A DNA stretch of 6,798 nt from Nitrospinota bacterium (GTDB lineage: Bacteria; Tectomicrobia; Entotheonellia; J063). Position numbers and translations under genes: made by a program. The stretch lies in contig RFHZ01000674.1 in NCBI GenBank assembly GCA_003696125.1, positions 1 through 6,798 on the forward strand. The letters are read 5' to 3'. Each line of letters opens with the position of its first letter. The first letter of the stretch is position 1. This document shows positions 1 through 6,798 of this stretch, in pieces. The notes under the pieces are model-generated. The model made no database searches. It saw only the letters and a list, made by a program, of their open reading frames with translations, and was not told the DNA's origin.

Positions 1-1062
1 ACCGGTAGGAAACTTGTGTCCTACCTGGCTTCTGACCACGACATCAACGGTCAGGGTAGATGGAGAAAGGCTCAGATTGGCGATGCTGAGGGTAGCGGTA
101 CGTTTCTGCAGTTGATCGAGAGTCCGGGTAAGCGTTGCCTCGAACTGCTCACCGGTCGCGGTTATGCCCAGTTCATCCCCAAAGGCTTTCAAGATCTTCA
201 ACATGTAGGCATTACCCCCGACAAAGACATGTTTGGAGAAGGGCTGGCGGGGTTGCCCACCGGTAAGAGAGATCTGGACACCTCCCTGCGCGTGCGGCAT
301 ATGACAGCCCTGGCAGGTCTGGCTCTTGGCATACACACTCTGGCGCCATTCCAGGTAGGGGGTCTGTTCCGGAAAGGCGCCCACGATGTTTCCGTCCTTA
401 TCGAGAGTAGGGGTGTACAGGGTATGACAGGTGGCGCAGAGAGCCGACTTCCTGATATGTAAGCCTTGGGCCGGCAGGAATCCAGAGGCGCTCTGCATCA
501 GGGTGGCCTGCTCAGGAGCGATAGCGTAGGGACCAAAGAGTGTTCGTTCTCCGGCCGGGGCCTGGGCATCGATGATGAACTTGCCGCTAAAGCTGGTGGC
601 ATCCCCCAGATTGTCAGGCCGGATCTGGTGGCATACGGTACAGGAGACCCCGTCTGTGGCCAGAGCATGCAGCGCATTTTTCGGGTCGAGGAATCCCTGA
701 TCCAGGATCTTCCCTTTCTGTCCCTGTTGATACGCCGTGAAGCGGGCCATGGGCATATGGCAGGTGGCGCATTTATCTTCGATGATGGCCTGAAGCTGGG
801 GGTGGATGAGGACTTCGCTACGAACCGTGGCCTGCCAGTAGGGATCGCGAGCCGAGTTGGCCATCAGGGTGGAACGCCAGAAAGAGTCGATAGACACGTC
901 GGTACCGGCTTCGTCTTGTAACCCGGTGTGACACATGGCGCATATCCCCGAGGTGGCAAAGTAGCGTCCCTCTTCCTGGGGCAGGGATAGACCAGAGTAG
1001 GCGGGACGGAGAGTAAAAAGCATGAGAGCCGTCAGAATGAGCATGGTCAGATGTTTTGGCAT
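1..1062 (-). CDS. Secreted multiheme cytochrome c (5 CXXCH visible), 3' end cut by window edge
   Basis: Reading the minus strand from ATG at 1062 gives 354 codons with no stop before the left edge. Residues 1-24 look like a Sec signal peptide: MPKHL, then a hydrophobic stretch, with possible cleavage after PAYS. Five CXXCH haem c sites follow: CAMCH 41-45, CATCH 98-102, CTVCH 141-145, CATCH 209-213 and CQGCH 250-254. Extra His residues are available as distal ligands (HMP after two of the sites, and His278). The visible sequence ends with GHKFPTG (348-354), a segment recurrent in large periplasmic multihaem cytochromes, so a further domain probably lies outside the window. By family knowledge it is exported, haem is attached covalently, and it carries electrons in the periplasm or at the cell surface. 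The redox partner is unknown. The start is fixed by an AGGAGG site seven bases upstream (1070-1075). Open frames on the opposite strand (16-462, 466-921) lack any family signal and are shadows of this gene. Confidence 0.93.
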   Translation of the reverse strand, partial: MPKHLTMLILTALMLFTLRPAYSGLSLPQEEGRYFATSGICAMCHTGLQDEAGTDVSIDSFWRSTLMANSARDPYWQATVRSEVLIHPQLQAIIEDKCATCHMPMARFTAYQQGQKGKILDQGFLDPKNALHALATDGVSCTVCHQIRPDNLGDATSFSGKFIIDAQAPAGERTLFGPYAIAPEQATLMQSASGFLPAQGLHIRKSALCATCHTLYTPTLDKDGNIVGAFPEQTPYLEWRQSVYAKSQTCQGCHMPHAQGGVQISLTGGQPRQPFSKHVFVGGNAYMLKILKAFGDELGITATGEQFEATLTRTLDQLQKRTATLSIANLSLSPSTLTVDVVVRSQVGHKFPTG

Positions 1063-1246
1063 ACCTCTACCTCCTCTTACATGGTAGATACTCCTGTCAA
1101 CCGTTTTACAGAAAAGGCCCTGCACGGTGGGCACATCCGGTAAAGAGCTGCTGGTGACCTTCTCTGGTGAAAACCGCGTGGTAGATCAACCGTTGCTGAG
1201 AGAGGTGTGACTCCTGAGGCGCTTCCTGTTGCCAGATGCCGTGCGC

Positions 1247-1276
1247 ATTATAGGGCACAGGGCAGTTGCCTGTCAA
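1247..1276 (-). promoter_or_regulatory. Sigma70-like promoter for the cytochrome gene
   Basis: On the minus strand a consensus -35 TTGACA (1271-1276) is separated by 18 bp from a consensus -10 TATAAT (1247-1252). Both hexamers match 6/6. Transcription would start near 1240, leaving a leader of about 178 nt before the cytochrome ATG. No operator is evident within the core promoter. Confidence 0.8.
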
Positions 1277-1325
1277 GGAGTCCCTCCGGGCCGTAGAGCA
1301 CGACCTCCGCAGGCTGATTGCCTGG

Positions 1326-1354
1326 TAGACAGCCCGGGGAAAAAAGGCTATTAT
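1326..1354 (+). promoter_or_regulatory. Sigma70-like promoter for the phosphoesterase gene
   Basis: TAGACA (1326-1331) and TATTAT (1349-1354) each match the -35 and -10 consensus at 5/6 positions and are separated by 17 bp. The start would fall near 1361, giving a leader of about 49 nt. The ribosome site before ATG 1410 is a less typical purine run, AAGGGGGA (1396-1403), six bases from the start. Confidence 0.65.
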
Positions 1355-1409
1355 CAAACAGCAGGGAACTGTATGGCTCGTAACGTTATAGCGAAAAGGG
1401 GGAAGTCCT

Positions 1410-3476
1410 ATGTCATTTACCTTTGCCGTGGTTACCGATTCTCATGTCAAGCTAGAAGAGGGGGATTTCTCGTCCCCTTACGCCTCCAATCAACTGGCCG
1501 TTGCCCGCAATCGCTATGTCATCGAGTACCTGAACCGTCTCGCTCCCGCCTTTGTCATCCATCTCGGCGATTTCGTGCAGGCGGTACCGGTTCTCCCCAG
1601 CTATGAGCCGGCGATGGAGGTGGCCAAAGCGTTGTTTCAGCAGCTCAAGAGCCCTCTGCACACCATCCCGGGGAATCACGATCTCGGTGACAAGCCGGTA
1701 CCCTGGATGCCGGCCCCGCTGGTCACCGAAGCGAACCACCGTCGCTTTGAGCGTTTCTGGGGTGCTACCTTCTCCGCCTTCGACCACCAGGGCTGTCGCT
1801 TCATCCTCATCAACTCACCGGTCCTCAACTCTGGCCTGCCCACGGAAGAGCGGCAGCGGGTCTGGCTGGAGGAGGAGCTGGCCACCCATCAGGGTAAACG
1901 GATCTTCCTCTGCACCCACTATCCCCTCTACCTGACCCATGCCCGTGAAGAGGATCATTACGACAACATCAGCGAGCCGGCCCGTTCCTGGCTCCTCTCT
2001 CTCCTGGAGCGATACCGGGTGGAGGCGGTCTTTGCCGGTCATGTCCACCATTTCTTCTATGACCGGCATGGAGAGACCGACCTGTACGTGCTGCCTGCCC
2101 TGGCCTTCACCCGCCAGGATTACAGCGAGCTCTTCTCCATCGACCCGGCAGATGAGTACGGTCGTAACGATGCCGACAAGCTGGGGTTCCTGCTGGTCGA
2201 TGTCTCTGCGCAGGGCCACACGGTACGCTTCATCCGCACCGGAGGCCGGACCAGGCCGGAAGAGGTTCCGGCTCCTGCTTCATCCTGGCGCTGGAGCGCT
2301 CCGCCCCAGAGCGATGCCCTCCGGCTCGGGGTCTATCTCCGCCATGCCTGGGCCCAGCCGGTGGCGATGCCTTACGGGAACCTGGACGAGTTTGTGCGCA
2401 AGAAGGCGCGTAACGATTATCCCCTTCTGGCCCTGGGGGATCTGGGTATCCGCCGGTTGCGCATTCCGATCGGCGATCTCCTGGAAGCGGAAACACGGGA
2501 ACGAATGCGCACGCTCAGGGCGCAGGGATACGCCTTCACCGTCTTCAGCATCGGTCTCCCTTCCCCCCGGCTCCGGGAGACCGTGGCCCGGTACCATGAC
2601 CTGCTGGAGGCCTGGGAGGTGGTGAGTACCGGGGAGCCGGTCGAGACACTGGCCACCTCTCTGCAGGAGATCAAGCAGGCCGTGCCGATCCAGGTGTTTC
2701 TCTCCCAGATCGTCACCGCGGCCACCACCTATCATGGGGAGCAGGGTTCCCGTTTTCATCACTTTGTCCGCCATGGATTTCGTGCCGCCGATGCCGGGGC
2801 CCTGGCTGTTCTGGACAAGGTAGCCGGCTGCATCGATGGGGTGGTCTTCTCCCTTCCTCCTGAGGAGCAGCCCTGGGAGGGGATAGCCCGGATCCGGCAG
2901 CAGGCAAGCAGCCGGGGGATAGCTCCCCTGGTTCATGTCCAGATGCAGGGCTCGGACAATCCGGCTCTTGCCCACATCGATGATCAGGCCATCGCCAACC
3001 GGGTAGCCGAGTCGGTCCTGGCAGCCCTGGTCAACGCTGTTCCCCTCTTCCTGGATACCTTTATCGATCATGATCGAGGGTATCATGTGCGGCATGGCCT
3101 GCTGGACCGGCGCTGCAATCCACGACCAGCCTATCAGGTCCTGCGTCACCTGCAACGGCTCCTCCCTGCTTTCCCCTCTCCCCGGCAGGGGGAGAGGGTC
3201 CAGGTCGACCAGGGACGGCTCTTCTGCCTCTCCTCCCCTTCCTCCTCTGCCCTCCTCCTGCTCCCGCATCCGGGAGGAGAGTCGCTCAAGGTAGAGAGCC
3301 TGGCCGCTCCCGGTCTTGCTCTCCGGCAGGGAAAGGGGAGGGGGATCGATCTGGTTACCGGAGAGGAGAGGAGTATCCGCTGGAGGCGAGACGAGCAGGC
3401 AGCAGGGGAGAGGGTGGTCATCGAGGAGACGCTGACCGCCTCCGGCCCGCTCCTTATCCTCCTCCAGGCAAGCTAG
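1410..3476 (+). CDS. Calcineurin-like metallophosphoesterase fused to a probable TIM-barrel-like domain
   Basis: The protein has 688 residues, no signal peptide and is presumably cytoplasmic. Residues 5 to about 275 form a metallophosphoesterase domain of the class III cyclic-nucleotide phosphodiesterase / CpdA-like type. All dinuclear metal motifs are present: DSH (Asp10, His12), GD (Asp54), GNHD (88-91), CTH (His170) and GHVH (210-213). Hydrolysis of a phosphomono- or diester is therefore expected, but the substrate cannot be read off. Residues about 303-585 do not belong to that fold. Alternating hydrophobic strands and helices (LRLGVYL, GIRRLRIPIGDL, FTVFSIGL, IQVFLSQIV, GVVFSL, LVHVQMQ, VPLFLDTF) ending in a PAYQVLRHLQ helix suggest a glycoside-hydrolase-like (beta/alpha)8 barrel. 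I could not assign catalytic acids. Residues about 590-688 form a low-complexity, Ser/Leu/Arg-rich tail, probably beta-rich, that includes a DNA inverted repeat. The gene has its own promoter and its stop overlaps that of the convergent RraA-family gene. The phosphoesterase part is certain; the barrel is inferred. Confidence 0.9.
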   Translation: MSFTFAVVTDSHVKLEEGDFSSPYASNQLAVARNRYVIEYLNRLAPAFVIHLGDFVQAVPVLPSYEPAMEVAKALFQQLKSPLHTIPGNHDLGDKPVPWMPAPLVTEANHRRFERFWGATFSAFDHQGCRFILINSPVLNSGLPTEERQRVWLEEELATHQGKRIFLCTHYPLYLTHAREEDHYDNISEPARSWLLSLLERYRVEAVFAGHVHHFFYDRHGETDLYVLPALAFTRQDYSELFSIDPADEYGRNDADKLGFLLVDVSAQGHTVRFIRTGGRTRPEEVPAPASSWRWSAPPQSDALRLGVYLRHAWAQPVAMPYGNLDEFVRKKARNDYPLLALGDLGIRRLRIPIGDLLEAETRERMRTLRAQGYAFTVFSIGLPSPRLRETVARYHDLLEAWEVVSTGEPVETLATSLQEIKQAVPIQVFLSQIVTAATTYHGEQGSRFHHFVRHGFRAADAGALAVLDKVAGCIDGVVFSLPPEEQPWEGIARIRQQASSRGIAPLVHVQMQGSDNPALAHIDDQAIANRVAESVLAALVNAVPLFLDTFIDHDRGYHVRHGLLDRRCNPRPAYQVLRHLQRLLPAFPSPRQGERVQVDQGRLFCLSSPSSSALLLLPHPGGESLKVESLAAPGLALRQGKGRGIDLVTGEERSIRWRRDEQAAGERVVIEETLTASGPLLILLQAS
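3174..3198. repeat. Perfect 10-bp inverted repeat inside the phosphoesterase gene
   Basis: CCCTCTCCCC (3174-3183) and GGGGAGAGGG (3189-3198) are exact reverse complements separated by the 5-nt loop GGCAG. The hairpin lies in frame in the C-terminal tail and encodes roughly SPRQGER. Similar CCCTCTCCC/GGGAGAGGG hairpins are common dispersed elements in GC-rich bacterial genomes, so this may be a small repeat that entered the reading frame. It sits between the barrel and the last 90 residues, as expected for a tolerated insertion. Confidence 0.75.
3473..3476. other. Shared CTAG: overlapping stop codons of convergent genes
   Basis: The phosphoesterase stops with TAG at 3474-3476 and the RraA-family gene stops with TAG on the other strand at 3475-3473. 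The two stops overlap within the self-complementary tetramer CTAG. No intergenic space and no hairpin-plus-T-run terminator is present here for either transcript. Confidence 0.95.
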
Positions 3477-4171
3477 GTGTACATGGCGTCGATGATCTCG
3501 CAGCCCCCTTTCTGCAGGGCTTCATCGACCCATTGGCGACCGCTGAGATCACCGGCCTGGTAGGCGGCAATGGTTTTGGCTTCCCGTTCTGCCTGGAGTC
3601 GCGTCTTTTCCAGGATCTCTTTCGCTTCTTTCTGGGGGATGACCACGACCCCGTCGTCATCCCCCACGATGATATCGCCGGGACGGACGGTCAGCCCGCC
3701 GCAGGAGATGGGGACGTTGATCTCGCCGGGTCCGTTTTTAAAGGGGCCCAGGGGAGTAACTCCCCGCGCAAAGACCGGAAAGTCCATCTCCCGGATGGCC
3801 AGGGAATCACGGACCGCTCCATCGATGACAAAGCCGGCCAGTCCTCGTGCCCTGGCGTACTGGCACATGATCTCGCCGATGATGGCGACCGTGGTATCTC
3901 CCTGCGCATCGACCACGATGACATCTCCTGGCTGGGCCACATCGAGCGCCTTGTGGGTGAGGAGATTGTCGCCGATACGGGCTTTGACCGTCACGGCAAC
4001 GCCGACCAGCTTGAGACCCGGCCTGTGTATCGGTTTGATTGCGGCATGCATCGCACCGAAGCGGCTCATGTTATCGGTGATGTTCCCGGTGCAGTATTTG
4101 CTGTATTCTGCCACCAGCGCCTTATCTGGACGAGGAACCTGGAGAAAGACGCGATACCCGATATTGCTCAT
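3473..4171 (-). CDS. RraA / HMG-aldolase family protein
   Basis: The protein has 232 residues, the usual length for the RraA-like family. Some members cleave 4-hydroxy-4-methyl-2-oxoglutarate or related oxo-acids to pyruvate with a divalent metal. Others bind RNase E, and older databases mislabel the family as a menaquinone methyltransferase. Family signatures are visible: ITDNMSRFGAM (31-41), the PGDVIVVD strand (81-88), GE (99-100) and, 20 residues after Glu100, the Arg121-Asp122 pair in IDGAVRD. This is the aldolase-type metal and substrate motif, with Glu in the first acidic position. PGDIIVGDDDGVVVIP (164-179) completes the fold. The start at 4171 is chosen because AAGGAGG lies six bases upstream; a start at 4207 would put this ribosome site inside the gene. 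The catalytic motif and the neighbouring dehydrogenases favour an oxo-acid aldolase over an RNase E regulator, but the substrate is unknown. The gene is divergent from the SDR pair and convergent with the phosphoesterase. Confidence 0.93.
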   Translation of the reverse strand: MSNIGYRVFLQVPRPDKALVAEYSKYCTGNITDNMSRFGAMHAAIKPIHRPGLKLVGVAVTVKARIGDNLLTHKALDVAQPGDVIVVDAQGDTTVAIIGEIMCQYARARGLAGFVIDGAVRDSLAIREMDFPVFARGVTPLGPFKNGPGEINVPISCGGLTVRPGDIIVGDDDGVVVIPQKEAKEILEKTRLQAEREAKTIAAYQAGDLSGRQWVDEALQKGGCEIIDAMYT

Positions 4172-4177
4172 CTTTTT

Positions 4178-4183
4178 CCTCCT
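4178..4183 (-). promoter_or_regulatory. Ribosome binding site that decides the RraA-family start
   Basis: On the minus strand AGGAGG (part of AAAAGGAGGAAAAAG) lies six bases before ATG 4171. This places the true start 12 codons inside the longest open frame and removes the implausible basic leader MLGVMLYKRRKK. Confidence 0.85.
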
Positions 4184-4223
4184 TTTGTAGAGCATGACAC
4201 CTAGCAACGCTTACCTATCAACC

Positions 4224-4252
4224 ATTATAGGGGACAAGGAGGGGAAAGGAAA
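4224..4252 (-). promoter_or_regulatory. Probable promoter for the RraA-family gene
   Basis: On the minus strand a perfect -10 TATAAT occupies 4224-4229. The best -35 at 17 bp is TTTCCT (4247-4252), which matches poorly, so the promoter may be weak or activator-dependent. The predicted start near 4217 leaves a leader of about 46 nt. Confidence 0.5.
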
Positions 4253-4278
4253 CCCAAAAGCCTGGAGGAAAATGGGAG

Positions 4279-4307
4279 TTGACAGCAGAGCAAAGAGGGC
4301 CCAGAAT
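4279..4307 (+). promoter_or_regulatory. Probable promoter for the SDR operon
   Basis: A consensus -35 TTGACA (4279-4284) is followed after 17 bp by CAGAAT (4302-4307), a 4/6 match to the -10. The transcript would begin near 4314 and carry a leader of about 195 nt that contains the palindrome and the heptamer array. A TATAAT at 4386-4391 lies closer to the gene but has no acceptable -35. Confidence 0.5.
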
Positions 4308-4336
4308 AGCAGAGGGACAGAGGCACCGGACGCCTG

Positions 4337-4364
4337 GTAGGGGCGCAGCGCGCTGCGCCCCTAC
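4337..4364. repeat. Perfect 28-nt GC-rich palindrome (REP-like)
   Basis: The sequence from 4337 to 4364 equals its own reverse complement with no unpaired centre. The left arm is GTAGGGGCGCAGCG and the right arm CGCTGCGCCCCTAC. Palindromes of the GTAGGGGCG/CGCCCCTAC type are frequent dispersed intergenic elements in several GC-rich bacteria and are often linked to REP/RAYT-type mobility. There is no T-run after it, so it is not a classical intrinsic terminator. In RNA it would form a very stable hairpin within the SDR leader. Confidence 0.85.
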
Positions 4365-4393
4365 GCGCTACACGGAACACTTGACTATAATAA

Positions 4394-4421
4394 ACCAGGC
4401 ACGAAAGACCAGGCACAAAGG
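4394..4421. repeat. Tandem pair of 14-nt repeats
   Basis: ACCAGGCACGAAAG (4394-4407) is followed directly by ACCAGGCACAAAGG (4408-4421), with 12 of 14 positions identical. A further ACAAAGG follows at 4423-4429. The period is twice that of the heptamer array next to it, suggesting one slippage-prone tract. Confidence 0.7.
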
Positions 4422-4435
4422 GACAAAGGATTTAC

Positions 4436-4491
4436 TCAGTCCTCAGTCCTCATCACTCATTACTCGTTACTCATCACTCGTTACTCATTAC
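4436..4491. repeat. Tandem heptamer array, eight units
   Basis: Eight contiguous 7-mers can be read: TCAGTCC twice, then TCATCAC, TCATTAC, TCGTTAC, TCATCAC, TCGTTAC and TCATTAC. The consensus of the last six is TCRTYAC. A degenerate unit ending in TTAC precedes the array (4429-4435). The array stops five bases before the SDR ribosome site and contains no open frame. Comparable heptanucleotide tandem repeats (STRR) are known from cyanobacteria and similar tracts occur in other large GC-rich genomes. Unit number is likely to vary between strains. Confidence 0.85.
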
Positions 4492-4508
4492 TTTTCGAGG
4501 AGGAGGTT

Positions 4509-5297
4509 ATGATTCTGGAACAGTTTCGTCTGGATGGTAAGGTAGCCATCGTGACCGGAGCCGGCCGGGGGCTGGGCAAGGCGATGGCGCTTGCGCTGGC
4601 CGAGGCTGGTGCCGATGTCGTGGTTACTGCCCGCACGGCGACACAGATCATGGAGACGGCCGAGGAGATCCAGAAGCTGGGGAGGCGCACGCTGGCCATA
4701 CCGACCGATGTGACCAGCTCCCAGCAGGTCAACAGCATGGTGGAGCAGACGATAAGCACCTTGGGGCACATCGACATCCTGATCAACAACGCCGGTGGGG
4801 GACTCGGTTTGAACAAACCGGTGTTGGAGTTGACCGATGAGGAGTGGCATCTGGGGATCAATACCAATCTGACCGGAACCTTCTTCTGCACGCGGGCGGT
4901 GGGGAAATACCTGGTGGAACAGCAGAGCGGCAGCGTGATCAACATCAGCTCAGGCTGGGGATTCCGGGGAGGGCGGAACTACATCATTTACTGCTCGAGC
5001 AAGGGAGGAGTGATCCAGTTTACACGTGCCCTGGCCATGGAGTGGGCGCGGGAGAATATCCGGGTCAACTGTATTGCTCCGGGTCTCTTCCCGACCAGGC
5101 CCCCGCGGAACGAGCAGGAGGAGCGACGCCGGCTGAATGCGGAGAAGTTTACCCCGCTGAAGAGGCTGGGAGTGCCAAAGGAACTCGGTCCCCTGGCCGT
5201 CTTTCTCGCCTCGGATGCGTCAGCGTACATCACCGGTGAGGTGATCGTCATCGATGGGGGAGCGCTGGCCGGTGGCTATGCGCCGATGGTGGATTGA
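4509..5297 (+). CDS. Short-chain dehydrogenase/reductase, classical type, first of tandem pair
   Basis: The protein has 262 residues and is a cytoplasmic NAD(P)-dependent oxidoreductase of the classical SDR family. The Rossmann glycine motif TGAGRGLG is at 16-23, the adenine-contact Asp67-Val68 at 67-68 and NNAG at 93-96. The catalytic tetrad is complete: Asn120 (in TNLTG), Ser148, Tyr161 and Lys165 (YCSSK). The C-terminal TGEVIVIDGGALAGG is typical of FabG/gluconate-5-dehydrogenase-like members. The Arg after the second strand (TART, 40-43) would fit NADP(H), but this is weak inference. The substrate (3-oxoacyl, sugar acid or other hydroxy acid) cannot be decided. The start is supported by a GAGGAGGAGG run (4497-4506) just upstream. 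A paralogue follows after 27 nt on the same strand with no terminator, so the two are probably cotranscribed. Compared with that paralogue this protein has two extra residues after NNAG and a longer C-terminal substrate-loop region. Confidence 0.95.
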   Translation: MILEQFRLDGKVAIVTGAGRGLGKAMALALAEAGADVVVTARTATQIMETAEEIQKLGRRTLAIPTDVTSSQQVNSMVEQTISTLGHIDILINNAGGGLGLNKPVLELTDEEWHLGINTNLTGTFFCTRAVGKYLVEQQSGSVINISSGWGFRGGRNYIIYCSSKGGVIQFTRALAMEWARENIRVNCIAPGLFPTRPPRNEQEERRRLNAEKFTPLKRLGVPKELGPLAVFLASDASAYITGEVIVIDGGALAGGYAPMVD

Positions 5298-5324
5298 GGA
5301 AGCGATTGAAGAGGAGATTGGTGC

Positions 5325-6086
5325 ATGGTATGGGAGGAGTTGAAACTGGAGGGAAAGGTCGCTCTGGTCACAGGAGGGGGACGGGGTTTGGGGCGGTCTA
5401 TGGCCCTGGCCCTGGCCGAGGCCGGTGCCGATGTGGTAGTGGCGGCACGTACCCGGGATCAGATTGAGCAGACGGCAGCCGAGATCAAAAAGCTGGGGAA
5501 GAGGGGGGTGGCGATTCCGGCCGATGTCACGGTATGGGAGCAGGTGCAATCCCTTGTGGATCAGGTGGTCTCGATGCTGGGACGGATCGATATCCTGGTG
5601 AACAATGCCGGTCAAGGCCTTTCCAAACCGCTTATGGAGACGAGTGCAGAGGAGTGGACAGCGGTACTCCAGACCAATCTCACCGGCATGTTCTACTGTT
5701 GCAAGGCGGTGGGGAAATACCTCCTGGCGCAGCGCAGTGGGAAGGTCATCAACATCGCTTCTGGGTTAGGAGAGCGCGGGTTGCCGAACAGCACCGCCTT
5801 TGCCGCCAGCAAGGGGGGAGTCATTCAGTTGACCCGCTGCCTGGCCCTGGAGTGGGCACCGTACCAGGTACAGGTCAATGCCATCGGGCCGGGCTGGTTT
5901 CCGGATAGCCCGGGTGGGCAGGAGAGCCGGCGGTATGGGGAGCGCCTGGAGCGGTTCATCCCCCTGGGGAGAAGGGGAAGGCCGGAGGACCTGCAGGGGG
6001 TTGTTGTCTATCTCGCCTCCAGCGCTTCAGACTTCATGACCGGTGAGGTGATCTTTGTGGATGGTGGAGTCCTGATCCACGCCTGA
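5325..6086 (+). CDS. Short-chain dehydrogenase paralogue with catalytic Tyr replaced by Phe
   Basis: The protein has 253 residues, clearly homologous to the preceding SDR along its length; by eye about half of residues are identical. It retains the cofactor motif TGGGRGLG (16-23), Asp67-Val68, NNAG (93-96), Asn118, Ser146 and Lys163, and ends with TGEVIFVDGG. At the catalytic Tyr position, 13 residues after Ser146 and four before Lys163, the codon at 5799-5801 is TTT (Phe159, FAASK). In nearly all active classical SDRs this residue is the Tyr that donates or accepts the proton. Either this is a catalytically impaired subunit partnering the first SDR, an enzyme with changed chemistry, or a TAT-to-TTT base error. 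A GAGGAG ribosome site (5311-5316) lies eight bases before the ATG. The gene ends three bases before the stop of the convergent phosphatase gene. Family and cofactor binding are certain, function is not. Confidence 0.94.
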   Translation: MVWEELKLEGKVALVTGGGRGLGRSMALALAEAGADVVVAARTRDQIEQTAAEIKKLGKRGVAIPADVTVWEQVQSLVDQVVSMLGRIDILVNNAGQGLSKPLMETSAEEWTAVLQTNLTGMFYCCKAVGKYLLAQRSGKVINIASGLGERGLPNSTAFAASKGGVIQLTRCLALEWAPYQVQVNAIGPGWFPDSPGGQESRRYGERLERFIPLGRRGRPEDLQGVVVYLASSASDFMTGEVIFVDGGVLIHA

Positions 6087-6089
6087 GCT

Positions 6090-6798
6090 CTAGTCTCGCT
6101 TCGCCATACCCTTATCGAAGTAGGTAACCCCCTGGACTGCAGAGAGCTGCACCAGGGAGGAGAAGGAGTCGGCCCTTTCCGAGCGGATGATTCGTCTTTC
6201 GTACCAGAGCTCTTCAGGAGCAGGCCCATCCCGCAGGGTTTCCACCAGCACCCGGCCGTCCAGGTCTGGGGGGAGGGGAACCTGGAGCAGGCTGAGGATG
6301 GTCGGGACCAGATCGATGCTGCCCGAGGGGACGTAGCTGATGCGACCCGGGGCAAAATCTGGTCCGCGTGCTGCCCAATAGTTGTGCATCTCGAAGGGAC
6401 TGAAGCTCCCGTGCATGCCGCTTCCGGCCGGGATGGTGCTGTCCGAGGCGATGACCCCTGGCACCGGGGTCGAGGTGTTTCGTCCCTGCCAGTGGAGGGA
6501 GAAGAGGATATCGGCAGCCCGGTCGTTGGCGTTGTGGATGAGGGAGAGGGGGAGGGTGCCGGGAAGAGGATAAGTGGTAAAGAGGGGACCGGTCCAGGCT
6601 TGTTTTTGTAAAAAGTGAATCACTTCCGGGAGTCTGGTTTTCCCTTCTTCTGACAGGTAGATCAGGCTGGCCCCTCCGCAGCGTCCTATCTGCATGGCTC
6701 CGTCCTGGAGCAAATCGACAAATCCTTGATCAGCGAGAATTTGCGGGACATCGACCGCCTGGATGATGGTCGAGGCTCCGTGATCCGAGGTGATGATC
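6090..6798 (-). CDS. Alkaline phosphatase superfamily phosphodiesterase/pyrophosphatase-like, C-terminal part
   Basis: The minus-strand frame enters from the right edge and ends with TAG at 6092-6090, giving 235 residues of the C-terminal half. There is no start in the window; a TTG at 6713-6711 is internal. The fragment begins IITSDHG, whose Asp5 and His6 are the paired metal ligands of the superfamily. Later SGMHGSFSPFEMH (126-138) supplies the third conserved His (His129), followed by ARGPDFAPG (143-151) and SGSIDLVPTILSLLQVPLP (158-176), the usual C-terminal elements of the type I phosphodiesterase / nucleotide pyrophosphatase (NPP) and related sulfatase-fold enzymes. The nucleophile Thr/Ser region lies outside the window. 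The enzyme hydrolyses a phosphate mono- or diester, or a related substrate, with two metals (usually Zn). Substrate and location are unknown because the N-terminus is missing. It is convergent with the second SDR gene at a 3-nt gap. Confidence 0.88.
   Translation of the reverse strand, partial: IITSDHGASTIIQAVDVPQILADQGFVDLLQDGAMQIGRCGGASLIYLSEEGKTRLPEVIHFLQKQAWTGPLFTTYPLPGTLPLSLIHNANDRAADILFSLHWQGRNTSTPVPGVIASDSTIPAGSGMHGSFSPFEMHNYWAARGPDFAPGRISYVPSGSIDLVPTILSLLQVPLPPDLDGRVLVETLRDGPAPEELWYERRIIRSERADSFSSLVQLSAVQGVTYFDKGMAKRD

Follow-up and report, generated by a model that had tools for sequence, protein, structure and literature searches.

Tandem SDR genes in which the second copy, a probable pseudoenzyme, lacks two conserved active-site residues

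Two sister genes of the SDR family lie side by side in the stretch of DNA analysed here, the first (SDR1) with an intact active site and the second (SDR2) with two conserved active-site residues replaced. SDR2 is probably a pseudoenzyme SDR encoded beside its active sister, an arrangement of a kind that is already known. Few enzyme superfamilies are as large as the SDRs, yet bacterial examples in which an active SDR subunit is paired with a dead one have, to our knowledge, rarely been documented. The window is a whole contig (C50, positions 1-6798) of a MAG comprising 990 contigs and 4.18 Mb. It carries the following genes:

1-1134, minus strand: multihaem cytochrome c-like protein, cut off at the window end
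1410-3476, plus strand: metallophosphoesterase of 688 aa, its calcineurin-like phosphoesterase domain at the N-terminus
3473-4207, minus strand: RraA-like/aldolase-like protein, oriented divergently to the SDR pair (PF03737; NF004850 with a score over its cut-off)
4509-5297, plus strand: SDR1 (P0002), 262 aa, a classical SDR
5325-6086, plus strand: SDR2 (P0001), 253 aa, the sister paralogue in tandem with SDR1, two of its active-site residues being replaced
6090-6797, minus strand: partial protein with a TSDHGA stretch that recalls alkaline-phosphatase/sulfatase-fold enzymes

The ORFs of SDR1 and SDR2 are both complete and on the same strand, with a gap of 27 bp between the SDR1 stop and SDR2. 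A ribosome-binding site (GAGGAGGAGG) lies directly upstream of SDR1 and AGGAG precedes the SDR2 ATG as its ribosome-binding site; the two genes are probably co-transcribed on the same mRNA. PF13561 and PF00106 were matched far above cut-off by both proteins (211 and 200 bits, respectively, for SDR2), and for both the best NCBIfam match was gluconate 5-dehydrogenase NF006070, with scores of 263.2 and 257.6 that fall below the curated cut-off of 279. Automatic annotation would label both proteins dehydrogenases. The AlphaFold2 model of SDR2 (mean pLDDT 94.7, pTM 0.92) has a complete fold, its low-confidence parts being mainly the C-terminus and residues 191-200, the loop that follows PG, and it matches solved FabG/gluconate-dehydrogenase structures with Z 38-39 (2uvd, Z 38.9 over 243 residues). 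Gluconate 5-dehydrogenase-like/FabG-like classical SDRs (NF006070, PF13561) are the best family matches of both proteins and share the fold, with 41% identity to 2uvd and 1vl8; SDR2 differs from them in lacking both the catalytic Tyr and the Thr of PGxxxT.

The codons on which this difference rests are the following:

5760-5762, plus strand: TCT, Ser146, active-site residue retained
5799-5801, plus strand: TTT, Phe159 where the catalytic Tyr is expected
5811-5813, plus strand: AAG, Lys163, active-site residue retained in an invariant column
5904-5906, plus strand: GAT, Asp194 replacing the Thr of PGxxxT

The initial annotation had described Phe in place of the catalytic Tyr in the second SDR, and this reading of the site held throughout: TTT encodes residue 159 of the SDR2 ORF, the motif reads FAASKGG where SDR1 has YCSSKGG (Tyr161), and Asn118, Ser146, Lys163 and the TGGGRGLG stretch are retained. 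SDR2 has the residues of the SDR fold, namely T16-G17, G21 and G23 of TGxxxGxG and N93-N94-A-G96 of NNAG, but departs from the YxxxK, Ser and Asn catalytic motif at Phe159 and from PGxxxT, which reads PGWFPD. All five residues of the full site (N120, S148, Y161, K165 and T196) are present in SDR1. By fold and sequence, SDR2 would be classed as an SDR-family protein, yet not as a catalytically complete one.

We aligned 97 non-redundant homologues taken from other loci and genomes. Tyr occupies the Phe159 column in 97/97 of them, and two relatives found later (L121 and L122) likewise have Tyr, so Phe159 is not ordinary family variation. In 34 columns 90% or more of the homologues agree; SDR2 departs at exactly two of these (Phe159 and Asp194) and SDR1 at none. 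Five apparent non-Tyr homologues (L017, L036, L038, L042 and L044) were set aside as remote (30% identity), with misaligned motifs. A relocated Tyr that might replace residue 159 was also sought; none lies nearby, the local SDR2 sequence being N-S-T-A-F. Three residues before the catalytic Tyr, SDR1 and many relatives have a second Tyr, and SDR2 has Ser.

Asp194 is a second defect, absent from the initial annotation, and because a second invariant residue is also lost the finding is stronger than first described. The element after strand betaF reads PGWFPD in SDR2 versus PGLFPT in SDR1, and among the homologues the column holds Thr in 96 of 97 and Ser in the remaining one. In SDR structures in general, the Thr of PGxxxT hydrogen-bonds the nicotinamide carboxamide. 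In a hydroxysteroid dehydrogenase, NAD is bound less well when a residue close by in this loop is mutated (PMC3662788). We considered T188 of that enzyme (3alpha-HSD/CR) as the equivalent of residue 194 and rejected it, as by its numbering T188 lies three residues past Pro185 and the SDR2 site five past Pro189; given this mismatch, the case shows only that the loop anchors NAD. The expectation that cofactor binding should survive in SDR2 is accordingly weakened: SDR2 still has its dinucleotide-binding motif, yet it no longer has the Thr that sits at the nicotinamide end of the pocket.

The second replacement also bears on whether Phe159 could be an error of assembly or sequencing in the MAG consensus. 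The initial annotation had cautioned that an error must be excluded, since TAT to TTT is a change of one base, and the fragmented state of the MAG (990 contigs) and its estimated contamination of 7.98% favour such a reading. However, turning any Thr codon (ACN) into GAT takes two base changes or more, so a single miscalled base cannot explain the SDR2 defects; the frame is otherwise clean, and a DNA search of the same genome found no second version of the locus in the assembly. The contig is moreover probably binned correctly, because a 28-bp palindrome that it carries recurs in about 30 other contigs. We therefore regard an error at Phe159 as very improbable, and as the whole story it fails on the second change. 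The palindrome itself, GTAGGGGCGCAGCGCGCTGCGCCCCTAC, is perfect and lies upstream of SDR1 at 4337-4364; with 35 genome sites at two or fewer mismatches, compared to 0 for the reversed control, it is a dispersed repeat family.

Loss of activity in SDR2 is likely. The claim that normal dehydrogenase chemistry should fail is likely to be right but is not certain, given what has been reported for E. coli FabG. Single S138A, Y151F and K155A mutants of that enzyme keep activity on ACP substrates, which is only 20-50% lower, and the S138A/Y151F/K155A triple mutant is still active on them, while none of these mutants reduces acetoacetyl-CoA (PMC7973133); losing the Tyr alone therefore need not abolish activity. 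Since the fold and sequence of SDR2 resemble those of FabG, an activity that persists in part or in altered form must be taken seriously as a rival. SDR2 could still be an enzyme that uses another proton donor or relay, for instance a water on Lys163 and Asn118, or one supplied by the substrate or by the partner, and perhaps carries out another reaction or holds the cofactor in another orientation set by Asp194. The ACP activity of the FabG mutants is consistent with this, as is the fact that SDR2 retains its dinucleotide motif together with Ser146, Lys163 and Asn118, but the presence of Tyr in all 97 homologues indicates that its loss is not freely tolerated by the family, the same FabG mutants fail on acetoacetyl-CoA, and in SDR2 the Thr is lost too. 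We consider continued catalysis by SDR2 unlikely.

SDR1 and SDR2 are 58% identical and were recovered as sisters with bootstrap/SH-aLRT support of 99/96 in a maximum-likelihood tree of 57 proteins. A tree of 99 rows, for which the two replaced columns were named for exclusion, again gave SDR1-SDR2 sisterhood, with support of 96. The pair therefore goes back to a tandem duplication, which took place either in this lineage or in a donor lineage that has not been sampled. The tips are 0.38 changes per site long for SDR2 versus 0.44 for SDR1; SDR2 is, if anything, the slower copy, and it shows no faster decay than SDR1. Comparison of the two copies gave a dN of 0.35 and a dS of about 1.07, the latter close to saturation, which shows constraint as an average over the pair; their third-position G+C contents are similar (0.77 and 0.74). 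As dN/dS and tip lengths are averaged over the whole time since the duplication, they cannot date the two losses. These values bear on the possibility that SDR2 has recently become a pseudogene, or is an allele without function that is being lost, as might be suspected from the disappearance of two invariant residues and from the lack of an orthologue showing long-term retention. Against this, SDR2 has a frame without a stop across 253 codons, a ribosome-binding site and no acceleration relative to SDR1, and it departs at no other of the 34 conserved columns despite about 0.38 changes per site, where long decay would have hit more of them. An unconstrained pseudogene is unlikely, and we judge a gene on its way to being lost to be improbable.

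The preferred reading, to which we give roughly even chances, is that SDR2 is a crippled pseudo-SDR kept as the partner of active SDR1, like BbsC with BbsD. On this reading, an ancestral SDR gene was duplicated in tandem, with SDR1 remaining a normal NAD(P)-dependent dehydrogenase/reductase. In SDR2 the fold, dinucleotide motif, Asn, Ser and Lys stayed, whereas Phe took the position of the general acid/base (Tyr159) and Asp that of the Thr near the nicotinamide (Thr194). SDR2 would most likely have been retained through a mixed dimer or tetramer with SDR1, which it would stabilise or tune, as BbsC does with BbsD. With only two invariant positions changed since the duplication, such a pair would show the order in which an SDR becomes a subunit.

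BbsCD is described, in the title of the work reporting it, as having inactive pseudoenzyme subunits in a heterotetramer (doi 10.1111/febs.16216, via PMC10818641). The likeness consists of adjacent genes for two related SDRs of which one has a defective active site. SDR1 and SDR2 differ from BbsCD in being sisters, and SDR2 differs in keeping the dinucleotide motif, Ser and Lys. BbsC, in addition, is said to lack cofactor. The analogy, which had been drawn in the initial annotation, is borne out as far as intact and defective sister SDRs side by side are concerned, but bbs-type neighbours (CoA-transferase, dehydrogenase, hydratase, thiolase) were found nowhere within the 6.8-kb contig. The PDB entry for BbsD, 7pcs, was matched by both SDR1 and SDR2; it was not among the 50 structural matches listed for the SDR2 model, which excludes nothing. 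Mixed SDR oligomers were among the structural matches of the model, namely SCR-SCR2 (7dn1) and the human mitochondrial ketoacyl reductase HSD17B8/CBR4 (4cql, 4cqm), a heterotetramer of two different SDRs with a chain that matches the SDR2 model at Z 37. The subunits of the latter enzyme differ in cofactor role.

That SDR1 and SDR2 form a hetero-oligomer is something we infer. In SDRs, alphaF and alphaG/strand betaG form the dimer and tetramer contacts. We compared the likeness of alphaE, alphaF and alphaG/betaG between the two copies with that in pairs of similar identity (49 pairs, which are non-independent). The putative interface segments were not unusually alike in SDR1 and SDR2, with alphaF and alphaG/betaG slightly less alike than expected, and the comparison therefore gives no support for co-assembly. 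An independently evolved enzyme/pseudoenzyme heteromer, in which SDR2, stripped of just the proton donor and the nicotinamide anchor, would sense NAD(P)(H) and control SDR1 allosterically via its kept dinucleotide site, seems rather unlikely. Alternatively, SDR2 may act by itself as a non-catalytic scaffold, sensor or NAD(P)-binding regulator with no SDR1 hetero-oligomer. Recruitment of an SDR as a structural part has a precedent in human SDR5C1, which needs neither dehydrogenase activity nor an intact NAD site for its role in tRNA methylation and RNase P activity (PMC3526285). The tandem arrangement with its sister and the gap of 27 bp point first to a joint function, however, and we find a solitary role distinctly unlikely.

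No orthologous SDR pair was found in 596 genomes, 44 contig loci, and viral and plasmid collections. Besides the paralogue, nothing above 56% identity was found in the five genomes of the MAG's own phylum, in 386 relatives, in a Rokubacteria-like phylum of 95 genomes or in two small phyla; the viral contigs gave no match to the pair, and the matches in the plasmid collection were all under 60% identity. The retention of Phe over time is unproven because of this, and the absence of orthologues limits the finding. Outside the window, the proteins closest to SDR2 share 55-56% identity with it. Single-copy SDRs of the Rokubacteria-like phylum (L084-L112) and of genomes G198 and G460 (L121, L122) are about 49-56% identical to SDR2 and, unlike it, all keep both Tyr and Thr. 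The two relative clusters that were read had no adjacent SDR and no tandem. In two Rokubacteria-like loci (L113, L114), the nearest single-copy SDR lies beside genes for an AMP-binding acyl-CoA ligase, a zinc alcohol dehydrogenase and polyhydroxyalkanoate functions, surroundings that hint at an acyl-CoA or alcohol substrate.

Elsewhere in the window, a Pfam search gave no match for the approximately 450 C-terminal residues of the 688-aa phosphoesterase protein (1410-3476), and the partial protein at 6090-6797 matched neither a Pfam nor an NCBIfam family at E 0.001. Just upstream of the SDR1 ribosome-binding site, positions 4440-4492 hold direct repeats of the ACTCATTACTCGTTACTCATCACTC type, which are short and imperfect.
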